From positions 3,038,001 to 3,102,000 of the forward strand of contig NZ_CP143889.1 of NCBI RefSeq assembly GCF_036417355.1: DNA of 64,000 nucleotides, given 5' to 3'. A program made the position numbers and the translations under genes. This DNA is from Akkermansia sp. RCC_12PD (GTDB lineage: Bacteria; Verrucomicrobiota; Verrucomicrobiia; Verrucomicrobiales; Akkermansiaceae). The notes below the pieces were generated by a model that worked only from the letters and a program-made list of their open reading frames with translations, was not told the origin of the DNA and made no database searches. Positions 26,331 to 31,410 of the stretch are shown here, in pieces; position 1 is the stretch's first letter; every line of letters starts with the position of its first letter.

Positions 26331-27089
26331 TTAAAACGGGTTTAGCGTCATCATGTGCTTATTCGTCCTGTGCCCATAGGTGGAGGAATACACATCCGTA
26401 ATTTCCCGAGCCCATTCGTCAATAGTGTGCTGATGGTGGGCGTATTTTTTAAAGTCCTTGGTATCCACGCCCAGCAGGGAGCTGTGGTCTTCCTCATAAT
26501 CCGCAAATTCGGAAACGATGCGGCCGTTCTCATCACGCAGGCGGCCCGCCATGGCGATGTGACCCTTCTTGATGAACCTCTTGACCAGGCCGCCGCCCTT
26601 GATACCACTCAACGCCGTGACAAAGATGCCGGCCTTGGCGTTCGTGGGTGTGATGGAGATGATGGCGAGTTCCAGCGTATAAGCACCCTTGGTTCCGACG
26701 GGAACCATGTCAAAATTCGGGTTTTTGGCAACCTCCTTCTCCATACTGGCCGTCACGCTCCTCTGGAAGTACGCCGCCAAATTGTGCAGGGCGTCAACCC
26801 CTTCCTTGCTTTCCGGCCTCACATCCATGTGAACCGTATCCACCGGAAGAACAGCCATCATCACCTTTTCGCCATTGACGCCGTTTACCCTGTCATTCCA
26901 TATTTTGTCATCCGGGGCGTTCCAGTACGCATCAAAGGGAATGTGGGAGTCCTCATTCTTCACATGATGCTCCACAAACCCCGTCTGGGGCACATGCTTG
27001 AAGTTATTGGAACAGGCCACTACCGCCATGCCGCCAAGCAGAACGAGCACCATCAGGGAAGCCAGAAACAGAAACCGATATTTTTTCAT
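26331..27089 (-). CDS. DUF3313-like lipoprotein
   Basis: 252 residues from the ATG at MKKYRFLFL; an upstream in-frame extension is rejected because the promoter lies inside it. A lipoprotein-type signal ends at VVACSN. The body has DUF3313-like features (TLELAIISITPTN, and GRLRDENGRIVSEFADYEED near the C terminus). Function is unknown; the protein should be anchored to a membrane on the periplasmic side. It is downstream of the radical SAM gene on the same strand but has its own promoter. Confidence 0.65.
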   Translation of the reverse strand: MKKYRFLFLASLMVLVLLGGMAVVACSNNFKHVPQTGFVEHHVKNEDSHIPFDAYWNAPDDKIWNDRVNGVNGEKVMMAVLPVDTVHMDVRPESKEGVDALHNLAAYFQRSVTASMEKEVAKNPNFDMVPVGTKGAYTLELAIISITPTNAKAGIFVTALSGIKGGGLVKRFIKKGHIAMAGRLRDENGRIVSEFADYEEDHSSLLGVDTKDFKKYAHHQHTIDEWAREITDVYSSTYGHRTNKHMMTLNPF

Positions 27090-27113
27090 AAACAGGCAAT
27101 CAGCTAGAATCAT

Positions 27114-27216: not shown

Positions 27217-28377
27217 TCAGTCCTGACATTCTGCAGCCGTATTTCCGTCTCCTGAGGAAACGCCGGAATAAAATTCCCGGATGAACCAGGGGTTGCGTTC
27301 CTCCCACAAGGTTTCCGCCACCCTGTCCGCCACCCGGATGGAGAGTTTTTCATGGAAACAGGTGAATTCCCCCACCCAGTCCGTCCTGCCGGAGGTTACG
27401 TAGTTGACGCAGCCGCACCATTGGAGACACCGCGCACGCAGGGAACAGTCCAGGCATTTGGGGTTCCTGTTGCCGCGGGCAGCCGCCAGCTTCAGCTTTT
27501 TCTCCCGGTCCACTCCGGTAAGGACATTGCCCATGCACAAGTTTTCAAGGTCATCATTCCCTACCAGGCGGGCGCAGGGGTAGATGTTTCCGGAGACAGC
27601 TACGGCGATTTCCCGTTCCCCCAGGGAACACATGTCACAGGTCTGATACCCGCCCTTCACATAGGCGCCAATCTTGCTCTGAATGACGTTCAGCGTCAGC
27701 GGATTTCCTGCCCGGTAACGCCGCACGACTTCTTCCCCTACCTTTTCATAGGCAGCGGAAAGGGCTGCCAGTGCCTCCGGCGTCCATTTAGCGCCAAAGT
27801 CCGGGTTCAGCATGATGTCCAGCCCGCAGGCCCCCCCCATCCACCGCACGGATTCCTCCAAATGCTTCACATTGGCCGGATTTACCACGCAAATCAGCTC
27901 CGCCCGGTGTTCCCTTCCCTTAAACCATTCCAGCGCGGCCACGCACTCTGCATGAGAGCTGCGGCCATCCGGATAATTGCGCCATACTCCGTGCATAGCT
28001 GCGTTTCCGTCCATGGAAAGCCCCAGATGAAATCCTTTTTCCATCAGCCATACCACACGCTCTTCCGTCAGCAGGGTCATGTTGGTGGTGAGCGTCCATT
28101 TCAGGTTGATTCCGGCGCGGGAGGACTCTGCTTCCGCATATTCCCGGCATTCCTGAAGAAGAGTCCATTCCAGCAGGGGTTCCCCGCCAAAAAAGCCTAT
28201 CTGGATTTCAGTCATTTTCCCCAGCGCCTTCCCTTCCCGGCATGCCTGTTGCAGCCCGAAGTCAATGGAGCGGAAAGCGGTTTTGCGGCTCATGGAAACC
28301 GCCCTTTTACGGCCTGCATAGCAGTAGCCGCAACGCAGGTTGCAGTCATGAGTCAGGCACAGGGTCAGATAAATCAT
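27217..28377 (-). CDS. radical SAM/SPASM peptide- or protein-modifying enzyme
   Basis: 386 residues. The [4Fe-4S]/SAM motif CNLRCGYC (Cys12, 16, 19) and GGEP (in FFGGEPLLEW) define the radical SAM core. The C-terminal third holds a cysteine-rich SPASM-like region (CDMCSLGE, IYPCARL, CLDCSLRARCLQWCGC, FTCFHE) that would bind auxiliary Fe-S clusters. SPASM enzymes usually modify peptides or proteins (sactipeptides, PQQ, anaerobic sulfatase maturation). The sulfatase-maturase signature SWQGGEPT is absent, so an anSME role is less likely. Four small leader-sharing peptides lie directly upstream on the same strand and are its probable substrates. The gap to the last peptide gene is 139 bases. Confidence 0.9.
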   Translation of the reverse strand: MIYLTLCLTHDCNLRCGYCYAGRKRAVSMSRKTAFRSIDFGLQQACREGKALGKMTEIQIGFFGGEPLLEWTLLQECREYAEAESSRAGINLKWTLTTNMTLLTEERVVWLMEKGFHLGLSMDGNAAMHGVWRNYPDGRSSHAECVAALEWFKGREHRAELICVVNPANVKHLEESVRWMGGACGLDIMLNPDFGAKWTPEALAALSAAYEKVGEEVVRRYRAGNPLTLNVIQSKIGAYVKGGYQTCDMCSLGEREIAVAVSGNIYPCARLVGNDDLENLCMGNVLTGVDREKKLKLAAARGNRNPKCLDCSLRARCLQWCGCVNYVTSGRTDWVGEFTCFHEKLSIRVADRVAETLWEERNPWFIREFYSGVSSGDGNTAAECQD

Positions 28378-28516
28378 GGTTTTTAGGGAATATCAGCCTG
28401 TCAGGACAACGAAACAGAAGATGATTTATCCGTTCACCTTCCACGTAGTTTCTCCGGGCAGCCGCTTCCTCCATTCCTTGGAACGGGAATCCGCACGTTT
28501 TTCAGGAGATAGAATT

Positions 28517-28828
28517 TCAGGGTGTTCCGTTTTTTTTCTTTTCCAAATCCGAATCTCCAGAGCAATCCTGATCGGAAACTGCCTCGTTCACCGGAAGTAC
28601 ATCAACGACCATGCCCGCAGTTCTCGTGATGGTATACAAGCCGGAGCCATCTTTTGTGTGAATCGCCTCTTCCTTTTTTCCGGCATTATCTGGAGCTTCC
28701 TCCCGGGGCTGGCAGGACATCAAGGTTCCGGCGGCAGTCAGCAGGACACCCGTTTTCAGCAACCTGGAAAATTCGGCGCGGGTGGGATAACCGCCGGAAA
28801 AAGATTTTTTTGCATTCCCGCCTATCAT
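28517..28828 (-). CDS. small lipoprotein-like peptide A1 (putative substrate of the radical SAM enzyme)
   Basis: 103 residues. Residues 14-39 form the shared block YPTRAEFS...LLKTGVLLTAAGTLMSC (Tyr14 to Cys39, 26 residues) found in all four peptides here. The block ends in a lipobox-like LMSC, so the protein may be lipidated on Cys39 or cut there. The remaining 64 residues are charged and polar (CQPREEAPDNAGKKEEA..., ending DLEKKKNGTP), with one further Cys near the end. It begins 4 bases after the stop of peptide B1. Residues 1-39 are nearly identical to those of A2, whereas the tails are unrelated. Confidence 0.7.
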   Translation of the reverse strand: MIGGNAKKSFSGGYPTRAEFSRLLKTGVLLTAAGTLMSCQPREEAPDNAGKKEEAIHTKDGSGLYTITRTAGMVVDVLPVNEAVSDQDCSGDSDLEKKKNGTP

Positions 28829-28832
28829 TCCT

Positions 28833-29033
28833 TTATTTTCCCTTAACGTGAATAATCTTAATAGGAGGAGGCAACGGAGCTACGCCCAAGACCTGTTGCT
28901 GGGAGCAGGCGATCAGGTTGCCGGACATGGCGGTGAGGAGGCCCAGCTTCAGCAGTCTGGACATTTCCTTTCCGGTAGGATAATCGGGTTTCCGCTCCGG
29001 TTGCGGAGGAATGGAGGCGCGGGGGGTAGTCAT
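28833..29033 (-). CDS. small lipoprotein-like peptide B1
   Basis: 66 residues. The 26-residue block runs from Tyr18 to Cys43 (YPTGKEMS, then LLKLGLLTAMSGNLIAC). After the cysteine come SQQQ, PLPPP and a Lys-rich end (VKGK). LIAC is a good lipobox. The tail is short (23 residues) and, unlike the A peptides, is conserved between B1 and B2. Followed after 4 bases by peptide A1. A TTGACAGTCAA palindrome sits 25 bases upstream of the ATG. Confidence 0.7.
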   Translation of the reverse strand: MTTPRASIPPQPERKPDYPTGKEMSRLLKLGLLTAMSGNLIACSQQQVLGVAPLPPPIKIIHVKGK

Positions 29034-29057
29034 GCTTTCCTGTTCCTATAAAATACT

Positions 29058-29068
29058 TTGACTGTCAA
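29058..29068. promoter_or_regulatory. TTGACnGTCAA palindrome upstream of cassette 1
   Basis: On the minus strand TTGACAGTCAA, preceded by a T-run. The same element (TTGACGGTCAA, 29040 plus 700, i.e. 29740-29750) lies at the same distance upstream of cassette 2. It may be the -35 of each cassette, a repressor site, or simply part of the duplicated unit; no good -10 follows. Confidence 0.4.
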
Positions 29069-29249
29069 GAAAAAACATTATTTTCCCAGTCACCGACATG
29101 GCATTTTCCTTCCAAAGCTCCCCCAGATTTCTTTTGCCTCCTGCGCAGCAGCATCCACAATGCAGGCTGATGCCATGTATCAGAGGAAAAATCAATGCAA
29201 ACAATACATTCAACCTACCCAGTGAAAGACGACAGAAATTCCAAGTTGC

Positions 29250-29504
29250 TCACTTCTCCAATCGCCTCTCCCATGCAGCCGGAAACTCTCCGCCGGTACG
29301 GCGCAAATGGTCATCAGGACAGGATCCCGTGTCTTTTTCATGACCGCCAACCGGGGATGCATTCACCCCTGATGAAGTTTGGAGTCCGCAGGACATCAAG
29401 GTTCCGGCAGCGGTCAGAAGAACTCCGGTTTTCAGCAATCCGGAGAATTCGGCCCGGGTGGGATAACTGCCGGAAAAAGACTTTTTTACATTCCCGCTCA
29501 TCAT
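29250..29504 (-). CDS. small lipoprotein-like peptide A2
   Basis: 84 residues. The first 39 residues match A1 at all but a few positions (MMSGNVKKSF, then SGSYPTRAEF, then LLKTGVLLTAAGTLMSC). The tail after Cys39 (GLQTSSGVNASPVGG...) shares nothing obvious with A1 and contains a Cys near the middle. This pattern of a fixed leader and variable tail is what modified-peptide precursors show, but a frameshift in the tail cannot be excluded. It starts 4 bases after the stop of B2. Confidence 0.65.
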   Translation of the reverse strand: MMSGNVKKSFSGSYPTRAEFSGLLKTGVLLTAAGTLMSCGLQTSSGVNASPVGGHEKDTGSCPDDHLRRTGGEFPAAWERRLEK

Positions 29505-29508
29505 TCCT

Positions 29509-29715
29509 TTACTTTCCCTTACCCTGGATCATCTTAACGGGAGGAGGCAGCGGTGCGCCCCCCAGGTGCACTCCCTGCTGCTGGGAGCAGGCGATCAGGT
29601 TGCCGGACAGAGCGGAGAGAAGGCCCAGTCTCAGGAGTTTTGATATTTCCTTTCCAGTGGGATAACCGGGCTTCCGGCACGGTGCGAGGGACATGGAAGC
29701 AGAAGGGGCAGCCAT
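29509..29715 (-). CDS. small lipoprotein-like peptide B2
   Basis: 68 residues. The shared block is at Tyr18-Cys43 (YPTGKEIS, then LLRLGLLSALSGNLIAC), followed by SQQQ, APLPPP and a terminal KGKGK-like end. First gene of the four-peptide run; its ATG is 42 bases downstream of the GH20 stop codon, so it may be read through from GH20 or start from its own promoter at the TTGACGGTCAA element. Confidence 0.7.
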   Translation of the reverse strand: MAAPSASMSLAPCRKPGYPTGKEISKLLRLGLLSALSGNLIACSQQQGVHLGGAPLPPPVKMIQGKGK

Positions 29716-29739
29716 GTCTCCCTACTCGCACCAATGCCG

Positions 29740-29750
29740 TTGACCGTCAA
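29740..29750. promoter_or_regulatory. TTGACnGTCAA palindrome upstream of cassette 2
   Basis: Minus-strand TTGACGGTCAA, preceded by a T-run and located 25 bases before the B2 start codon, matching the element in front of B1. Confidence 0.4.
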
Positions 29751-29757
29751 GAAAAAA

Positions 29758-31410
29758 TTATTCGTCCTCCCCCAGGGGACGATACTTGACGGCCAGTTTT
29801 TCCAGGAGTTTCAGAGCCATGGCCGCACGGGCGCGGAAGGAGCGGTAATCCCTGGGATCACAGTCGCTCCAGGCGCGCTCCGCCAGCGCGAGGGCGCGAG
29901 GCCACGCCATGTATTCCACCAGCCCCATATTGTACAGGTATTCAGTCCAGATGTTGGCCTGAAGGCCGCGCACCTTGACGACCTCCTCCGGGGAGAGTTC
30001 CGGCAGTTCATAACCATACACCTGCTTGAGCGGAATGAGGCCGCCTATGGCTTTAGGCTCCGTGGAACCGGCGGACTGGTAGTAGTCAAAGTAGAAGTGG
30101 GAGCTGGGAGCCAGAATGACGGGGTGCCCTTTTCTGGCGGCGGCAGCGGCAAAGTCATTGCCGCGCCACGCCATGACGAAGATATGCTTGTCGGCTTCCA
30201 GTTCACCGCCCTCGTCCCAGACGATGGCGTCATACCCGCCCTGCCGCACATAAGCCGCCACTTGACGGAGAAAGTCCCTGCCCAGAGCCTTCAGGCTGTT
30301 TTCATTCAACCCCTTCAGGCGGCTCTGGCAGTACTTGCAGTTTCTCCATGATTCCGTGGAAACTTCATCATGCCCCAGATGAATGGGGGAACCGGGCGGA
30401 AAAATGGTCTTCAATTCATCCACCACGTCTTTCACGAACTGCATGGTTTCCGGACGCCCCATGCAAACGGTGTCCCGCCCTTTTTTGCCTTCCACGGGAA
30501 AGTTGACACCGTCGCAGACCAGTTCCCCGTAGGCGTGCATGGCGGCGTACGCATGTCCGGGCAATTCTATCTCCGGAACGACTGTCACCCGGCGATTCCG
30601 GGCGTATGCGATGATCTCCTTCATCTGCTCCTGTGTGTAGAACCCGCCGTACGTCGCTTCCGGATCGTTCTCCTGAATAGCCAGCTTCACTTCCTGCCAG
30701 TTCCATTCCCCGTTGGCCAGCGGCACGCGCCAGGCGCTCATGGTCGTCAGGAGCGGGTATTTTTTGATTTCCAGCCGCCAGCCGGGACCGTCCGTCAGGT
30801 GCAGGTGCAGCCGGTTGAGCTTGAACAGGGACATGGTGTCTATCATGCGCTTGACTTCCGCCATCGTGAAGAAATGGCGGGAGACGTCCAGCATGATGCC
30901 ACGCCACTCGAAGCGCGGAACGTCCCTGATGGAGAAGGCGGGTACGGAAAAGCCGCCTTCCGTCCGGTTGGCGTTCAGTATCTGTACTGCACTCTGCCAT
31001 GCGTAGAAGAGCCCCTGCGGAGCCGCCGCGCGAAGATGCAGGACGCCTCTTCCCCCATCCCGGCTTTCCAGGCGCATTTCATACCCCTCTTCCGTTTTCA
31101 TGGGCTCACCTTCCAGGGAACATAGCACATCCGCCGAGTTCCTGTCTCCGGTCATGGACAGGCCCGTGACAATGCCCTGGGCATTCAAAATATTAAGCAG
31201 GGCCTCCACCGTTCCGGCGTCCCTGCCGGGGGCATAAACGGCCAGGCGCAGTGGCAGCCGTACGGGAACGGAGACGTCAGACCTGCATTCGGACGGAGCG
31301 GGAAGCAAAATGTTTTCCGCAGGGACGGGAGCCTCTCCCGCGGCCGTCAGACATCCAGCCAGAGCCAGAAAGGCGCTCATCCGGTGAAAACGTTCCCTGG
31401 TCAGCCTCAT
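29758..31410 (-). CDS. GH20 beta-N-acetylhexosaminidase, lipoprotein
   Basis: 550 residues from the ATG at MRLTRERFHR; the frame is open to 31548 but the upstream part is not signal-like. LALAGC (Cys20) is a lipobox, so the enzyme should be membrane-anchored. The GH20 barrel is clear: FEWRGIMLDVSRHFF, HLHLTDGPGW and the catalytic pair in HLGHDEVS (Asp348-Glu349), which act by substrate-assisted hydrolysis of terminal GlcNAc or GalNAc. It fits the breakdown of mucin O-glycans. The four-peptide cassette follows closely on the same strand. Confidence 0.93.
   Translation of the reverse strand: MRLTRERFHRMSAFLALAGCLTAAGEAPVPAENILLPAPSECRSDVSVPVRLPLRLAVYAPGRDAGTVEALLNILNAQGIVTGLSMTGDRNSADVLCSLEGEPMKTEEGYEMRLESRDGGRGVLHLRAAAPQGLFYAWQSAVQILNANRTEGGFSVPAFSIRDVPRFEWRGIMLDVSRHFFTMAEVKRMIDTMSLFKLNRLHLHLTDGPGWRLEIKKYPLLTTMSAWRVPLANGEWNWQEVKLAIQENDPEATYGGFYTQEQMKEIIAYARNRRVTVVPEIELPGHAYAAMHAYGELVCDGVNFPVEGKKGRDTVCMGRPETMQFVKDVVDELKTIFPPGSPIHLGHDEVSTESWRNCKYCQSRLKGLNENSLKALGRDFLRQVAAYVRQGGYDAIVWDEGGELEADKHIFVMAWRGNDFAAAAARKGHPVILAPSSHFYFDYYQSAGSTEPKAIGGLIPLKQVYGYELPELSPEEVVKVRGLQANIWTEYLYNMGLVEYMAWPRALALAERAWSDCDPRDYRSFRARAAMALKLLEKLAVKYRPLGEDE

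Follow-up and report, generated by a model that had tools for sequence, protein, structure and literature searches.

A radical SAM/SPASM enzyme and its putative substrates, lipoprotein-like peptides with a shared leader, in Akkermansia and relatives across its phylum

Among proteins of solved structure, the best match to the radical S-adenosylmethionine (SAM)/SPASM enzyme considered here is CteB, the thioether maturase of a SCIFF peptide, whose N-terminal part is its RRE, a recognition element for ribosomally synthesized and post-translationally modified peptides (RiPPs). For PapB, the enzyme behind the closest curated family model, part of the published account argues from RRE binding of the leader (PMC9413430). 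Part of the literature on bufferins and other RiPPs modified by multinuclear non-heme iron-dependent oxidative enzymes (MNIOs) describes precursors with Sec signals, some of them lipoprotein signals and some of the precursors very long; Sec signals are presented there as a rare feature of bacterial RiPPs, with Sec use in the native host experimentally shown for bufferins only (PMC12452194). The main text of a survey of Bacteroidales RiPPs contains neither the word lipoprotein nor the word Akkermansia (PMC10352776). Here we analyze a 64,000-nucleotide stretch of the genome of Akkermansia sp. RCC_12PD (contig NZ_CP143889.1, positions 3,038,001 to 3,102,000; hereafter the window, to whose numbering all coordinates refer), a genome of 3.17 Mb in one contig, in which a radical SAM/SPASM gene follows four small genes whose products share a leader. 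These genes belong to a real and widespread system of probably radical SAM-modified peptides, a variant that is undescribed as far as our searches reach: no description of the enzyme/peptide system was found among open-licence PubMed Central articles, searched mostly at the level of titles and opening abstracts. We consider it probable (roughly 0.7) that the SPASM enzyme has these four peptides as its substrates, using the n-region of their signal peptide as a tag and modifying their tails in the cytosol before export by the Sec/lipoprotein route.

The locus lies on the minus strand and is read in the order B1, A1, B2, A2, enzyme. Precursor peptides B1 (68 amino acids, 29509..29715) and A1 (84 amino acids, 29250..29504) are separated by four bases, as are B2 (66 amino acids, 28833..29033) and A2 (103 amino acids, 28517..28828), and A2 is 139 bp from the gene for the 386-residue enzyme (27217..28377). 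A preliminary description of the window had placed four small genes head to tail before a radical SAM/SPASM gene, and all five open reading frames (ORFs) were recovered as described. The 26-residue block from Tyr to Cys, with Glu at position 6, that it had reported is present in all four peptides (YPTGKEISKLLRLGLLSALSGNLIAC in B1, YPTRAEFSGLLKTGVLLTAAGTLMSC in A1) and is encoded at 29587-29664, 29388-29465, 28905-28982 and 28712-28789 in B1, A1, B2 and A2, respectively. The tails beyond it measure 25 (B1, SQQQGVHLGGAPLPPPVKMIQGKGK), 45 (A1), 23 (B2, SQQQVLGVAPLPPPIKIIHVKGK) and 64 residues (A2), again as reported (64 and 45 for the A type, 23-25 for the B type). B1 and B2 are 70% identical (E 7.0e-23), and a B2 homologue is present in a near relative, G044 (E 2.8e-18).

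The four peptide genes stem from a tandem duplication in which a single B-A cassette was copied. Two direct repeats (D1, 85%, and D2, 75%) divide them into two cassette copies 676-682 bp apart: copy 1 (upstream element, B1 and the A1 leader) occupies 29388..29757 and copy 2 (upstream element, B2 and the A2 leader) 28712..29075, both on the minus strand. At the DNA level the A copies agree to 85%, and the ungapped repeat runs to the final base of the Cys codon (28712), past which the A1 and A2 tails show no alignment by eye. Differences between the leaders are mostly synonymous, with nonsynonymous (dN) and synonymous (dS) divergences of 0.060 and 0.444 for A1 vs A2 and of 0.106 and 0.463 for B1 vs B2; the leaders are under purifying selection. 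Because the cassette is repeated, the leaders diverge in this constrained manner and the tails do not align, these are real genes in which the leader has been kept and the tails differ.

The association of peptides and enzyme recurs throughout the genus. An enzyme homologue (E ≤ 1e-20) was found in 48 of 76 Akkermansia genomes, and a scan of genome contigs returned a single relative. The enzyme was present, whole or in part, in 55 of 57 stretches examined, and in 41 of these 55 loci it is adjoined by one to eight leader-sharing peptides found by profile; the last peptide ends 9-15 nt ahead of the start of the enzyme match in 17 of the 41. Across whole genomes, 46 of the 48 with the enzyme and 4 of the 28 without it have a peptide match at E ≤ 1e-7, a cut-off chosen after the table had been inspected (p 1.5e-13, phylogeny ignored); the counts are 26 of 28 vs 4 of 28 (p 2.4e-9) when the 20 genomes that were the source of the profile are removed. 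Among the 30 largest clusters of ORFs of at least 80 amino acids, the most recurrent one, once the enzyme and the ORFs that overlap it are discounted, is the peptide cluster itself (11/55 loci). No other of these clusters occurs in more than 9/55 loci, and a conserved partner gene of this size was therefore rejected. At two loci (L167 and L173), truncated or frame-split copies of the enzyme adjoin peptide genes, so that loss of the enzyme with retention of the peptides seems to occur.

A search of 288 genomes at the level of the order gave two matches beyond the genus at E ≤ 1e-40. At E ≤ 1e-50, matches to the enzyme profile were spread over 16 of 197 genera, in 25 of the 387 genomes searched across the phylum, and 16 of the 25 lie outside Akkermansia. 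Eighteen such loci from 17 genomes were inspected, and in 14 of them a protein with a Tyr-Pro (YP) leader and a hydrophobic stretch is encoded on the same strand beside the enzyme; the filter for these two features passes 38 of the 1688 ORFs of these loci, precursors included. The preliminary description had read a fixed leader with variable tails as the layout of a modified-peptide system and had proposed a wider search for the pairing; the reading is supported, and the pairing recurs across Akkermansia and in further families of its phylum. Outside the genus, cargo is as small as 94 residues at L198 and reaches about 280-395 residues at L201, L203, L204, L206-L208, L144 and L145. One YP-leader protein beside a phylum enzyme (L199:4503-5006, plus strand) contains a LysM domain (Pfam, 5.7e-17) and was the only one of 12 outside proteins to reach a curated cut-off in Pfam and NCBIfam; the second precursor of L205 also appeared LysM-like by eye. 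The YP-leader proteins of about 300 residues at L203, L204 and L206-L208 have in common G-x-[RE]-G-x-FGC-[VI]-[AS] followed by an acidic, ED-rich segment, and the two that were scanned (L203, L206) gave no family match. The large YP-leader proteins at L201, L144 and L145, encoded downstream of the enzyme, share SSP[FY]GTGxP.

In the enzyme tree, the window type groups with phylum loci of small or medium cargo, with weak support (86/85), the other 43 Akkermansia enzymes fall together (94/96), and so do the large-cargo loci (99/100). The tree leaves out 8 of the 55 enzymes (the short L098-L101, and L060, L065, L074 and L075, which have a stop in translation) and carries a long-branch warning, foremost for L209 and L202.

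The genus peptides were compared in a set of 86 (82 distinct), obtained from 99 profile hits, with E values up to 1 admitted, by removing seven judged spurious by eye, four without the Cys pattern and two large proteins of genome G002, in which the Akkermansia-type leader is also found on proteins of 197-358 residues. Their leaders follow the consensus M-K-I-x-P...YP ahead of the hydrophobic stretch, with Ile at position 3 and Pro at position 5 in 68/86 each and YP in 69/86; the remaining 17 have LP (10), IP (1) or another pair (6). A lipobox-like end is found in 79/86, although the set was selected for [SAGTV]-Cys and only the two positions before it test the lipobox independently. With hydrophobic stretch, lipobox and Cys, the peptides follow the bacterial lipoprotein pattern and are predicted lipoproteins. 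The lipobox Cys is followed by Gln in 38/86 and by Asp in 20/86; in E. coli, Asp at this position causes retention in the inner membrane.

The tails that follow these leaders are 16-111 residues long (median 51), rich in Pro, Gln, Glu and Gly, and free of Cys in 67/86. When all residue pairs up to eight apart were counted in 47 nonredundant tails and compared with shuffles, the most enriched pair was Gln-x3-Gly (88 vs 21.1, z 15.9), which is present in 41 of the 47 tails (shuffle mean 17.1, maximum 26). The same pair was enriched in 25 held-out tails from other loci, dissimilar to the first set, where it was counted 39 times vs 12.9 (a count reached in 0/2000 shuffles), with a clear peak at spacing 4, and was present in 17 tails vs 9.8 (reached in 2/2000); under stricter thinning, 16 held-out tails still gave 30 vs 8.0 (0/2000). 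In the window, B2 carries QQVLG and A1 carries QTSSG. Three precursors without a lipobox Cys keep the motif, namely those of L075 (QRMPG, QPLSG), L081 (QPYSG, QNAVG) and L177 (QDVPG, QRVVG); because of this, and with most tails free of Cys, Cys was rejected as the common target. At L066, a leader peptide upstream of the enzyme has a His-rich tail (CHHHHNSAPTYHH...), unlike the Gln-rich others. Among proteins outside the genus, the tails of the smaller ones repeat phi-x-G-[DEK]-[IV]-A-x-P (e.g., RLRGEIAVPVPP), a pattern described after the fact, and the counts for the broader phi-x-G-x-[IVLP]-[APCVS] (15 vs 2.5 in 8 tails, 35 vs 4.1 in 47) are likewise descriptive because the motif was written after inspecting the sequences.

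The enzyme itself has the motif and cysteine pattern of the broad radical SAM/SPASM peptide maturase kind, together with a genetic link to a leader-bearing precursor. Its CX3CX2C motif lies at residues 12-19, and C12, C16 and C19 as well as the SPASM-region cysteines 250, 268, 308, 311, 317, 321 and 340 are invariant in 30 sequences. It exceeds the cut-off of Pfam Radical_SAM (42.9 bits vs 29.5) and falls below that of Pfam SPASM (15.9 vs 21.5); of the 25 best NCBIfam models, none reaches its cut-off. Identity with the sulfatase maturases of TIGR03942, which would have counted against the preliminary description, was ruled out (86.4 bits vs 349.45). The match to CteB (PDB 5wgg; E 2.4e-51, by profile) is aligned through the SPASM region and starts only at CteB residue 98-99, with our enzyme beginning at the radical SAM domain, and for this reason the enzyme has no room for an N-terminal RRE-type domain. 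An AlphaFold2 model built from two sequences was poor (mean predicted local distance difference test score 43.5).

Taken together, the genetics support well the putative status of the peptides as substrates, and a sequence of events can be proposed from the anatomy of the precursors and from what is generally known of radical SAM enzymes and lipoproteins. The enzyme, having no N-terminal RRE, would dock on the signal peptide at its conserved n-region, which ends in YP. The tail would then be modified in the cytosol, in Akkermansia at the Gln-x-phi-x-Gly repeats, by a chemistry that does not depend on Cys. The lack of Cys excludes thioethers within most of the tails, and the i,i+4 spacing of Gln and Gly leads us to propose either a local i to i+4 bond at or near these residues or epimerization there. 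As the lipobox suggests, Sec export would follow, with Lgt acylating the Cys and signal peptidase II removing the leader, so that a short lipopeptide rich in Gln, Pro and Gly could be left on the membrane. A single enzyme may serve several precursors, also in trans.

Several observations weigh against this proposal. Fourteen of the 55 enzyme loci lack profile-found adjacent peptides, and here the earlier expectation that the peptides adjoin SPASM genes, borne out at the 41 other loci, fails for one clade (support 100/99) that accounts for seven of the 14, although enzyme and peptides go together in the genome counts. All seven genomes of this clade carry the peptides elsewhere, in tandem in five, and in one of them (G054) a second enzyme, L096, has an adjacent peptide. 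The 14 also include second enzyme copies (L095, L097), partial enzymes (L098, L100), a locus whose precursor without lipobox Cys was recognized by eye (L075), and L060 and L065, which hold a leader-like remnant only and none, respectively, in genomes that carry peptides elsewhere; in both of these enzymes the stop in translation is the natural C-terminal end (L060 compared with L058). Conversely, strong peptides occur in enzyme-negative genomes G015, G030, G041 and G051; G030 keeps a truncated enzyme beside the peptide, and the other three exceptions are explained by nothing beyond draft assemblies. Enzyme-positive G069 and G073, both with partial enzymes, have no strong peptides. The co-occurrence statistics ignore phylogeny, and the tails are related to one another. 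The motif is missing from 6 of the 47 tails of adjacent peptides and 8 of the 25 held-out tails, its presence under stricter thinning (11/16 vs 6.1) was reached by 10 of 2000 shuffles, and in the window B1 has no exact Gln-x3-Gly and QDCSG of A2 may be a chance match. Outside the genus, 4 of the 18 loci lack a YP leader: at three of these (L196, L197 and L205) the start resembles a signal and YP is absent, and at L209, the weakest enzyme match, neither a signal-like start nor YP was seen. Finally, other families have putative substrates of about 300 residues, which makes a single common chemistry less sure.

Other explanations would account for parts of the same evidence. Entericidins and lysis proteins are types of small lipoprotein, such lipoproteins are common, and the prevalence of the lipobox-like end is what would be seen if the peptides were ordinary members of this kind lying by chance beside an unrelated enzyme. 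We regard this as improbable, given that neither Pfam nor NCBIfam gives the four window peptides a match below E 0.14, that peptides and enzyme co-occur, that the n-region and the tail motif are conserved, and that larger YP-leader proteins adjoin related enzymes elsewhere. A slightly better, though still unlikely, alternative is that the enzyme modifies the leader itself, at the Tyr of YP or at the lipobox Cys, perhaps as a means of controlling export or lipidation, with the tails as bystanders. It would explain why YP is so widely shared, in the genus and at loci elsewhere, and the tails vary most; it fits poorly with the 17 leaders that lack YP, with the three precursors that lack Cys, and with Gln-x3-Gly repeats placed within the tails, as would suit a target site.

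Two further possibilities appear very unlikely. The peptides could act as adaptors or regulators and direct the enzyme to some other target, as their occurrence in trans and their often greater number than the enzyme would allow, but the tails are many and divergent and carry a repeated motif, and the larger domains found behind a like leader resemble cargo. Equally hard to sustain is a PapB-type ranthipeptide system, in which Cys would be cross-linked by thioethers to Asp or Glu. Among NCBIfam models, PapB (NF047865) scores best for the enzyme and for all 10 relatives tested outside the genus, and the Gln-x3-Gly spacing equals the Cys-x3-Asp spacing given for PapB in part of its published account (PMC9413430). 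The scores nevertheless fall short of the cut-off of 340 (190.9 bits for the enzyme, 181.8-218 for the relatives), most tails have no Cys, and C-x3-[DE] occurs in only 1/86, so that membership in PapB was ruled out.

Modification of the tails of signal-tagged substrates therefore remains our preferred reading for Akkermansia. Its extension to a class spanning several families is more tentative, and we would place it a little below even odds: SPASM enzymes without RRE may read a YP tag in the n-region of Sec/lipoprotein signals and alter Gln-x3-Gly or phi-x-Gly-x-[IVP]-[AP] sites in a manner independent of Cys, on cargo ranging from lipopeptides of about 20 residues to proteins of about 300, so that the export signal would double as the modification tag. 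The radical SAM family in question appears to use the signal peptide as its own leader, and the lack of an N-terminal RRE together with the mostly Cys-free targets suggests a chemistry other than thioethers. One enzyme and a 66-residue substrate make a simple pair for testing, and the relatives supply many natural substrate variants from which rules for leader and site could be derived. Akkermansia lives on gut mucus, and short surface lipopeptides could bear on contact with the host or with competitors; competition, signaling or a part in the envelope are roles that we propose as candidates.

Two features of the window lie at the margins of the system. Each cassette copy starts with TTTTTCTTGAC[G/A]GTCAA, a pattern with two matches in the window vs 0.01 expected: TTTTTCTTGACGGTCAA upstream of B1 (29740..29756) and TTTTTCTTGACAGTCAA upstream of B2 (29058..29074), both on the minus strand. 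In both, a palindromic TTGAC[G/A]GTCAA stands behind a T run 5' of the B gene. The form TTTNTTGACNGTCA occurs three times genome-wide, twice at this locus, and in G044 two of three occurrences are at its locus; the element is perhaps a promoter or operator. Downstream of the enzyme lies a lipoprotein-like gene (26331-27110, minus strand; MKKYRFLFLASLMVLVLLGGMAVVACSNN...), and the long ORF containing it has no Pfam or NCBIfam match at E ≤ 1.

Comparison with known systems sets the locus apart from each of them. The preliminary description had likened it to the radical SAM/lipoprotein pairs of Bacteroidetes, and by the names of the models TIGR04133 and TIGR04134 the two share a radical SAM enzyme paired with lipoproteins. 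As membership, this likeness did not hold, since the TIGR04133 cut-off of 425 is exceeded in none of the 76 genus genomes (best 112 bits, in G035) and a search for TIGR04134, confined to the genome that contains the window, gave no match at E ≤ 10. CteB is akin to our enzyme through the SPASM region, but its N-terminal part has no counterpart here and the substrates here are not Cys-rich. With PapB/PapA, the locus shares the best curated model, over most of the enzyme, as well as repeated i,i+4 residue pairs in the substrate and guidance by a leader, as far as part of the published account goes; it differs in an enzyme that begins at the radical SAM domain, in contrast to the RRE-based reasoning on leaders in that account (PMC9413430), in a score of about half the cut-off, in mostly Cys-free tails and in a Sec/lipoprotein-like leader.

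The pairing of enzyme and putative tagged substrate in the phylum relatives has a form that lies outside the family libraries searched. In its precursors, the system comes near to bufferins and other MNIO-modified RiPPs, which, in the part of the literature considered, likewise have Sec-signal precursors, some of lipoprotein type or very long (PMC12452194). Those systems, however, rely on an MNIO with partner proteins and mostly on Cys-containing motifs (PMC12452194), whereas here a radical SAM enzyme, with no conserved partner gene found among the 30 largest clusters, is paired with precursors whose tails are mostly free of Cys.

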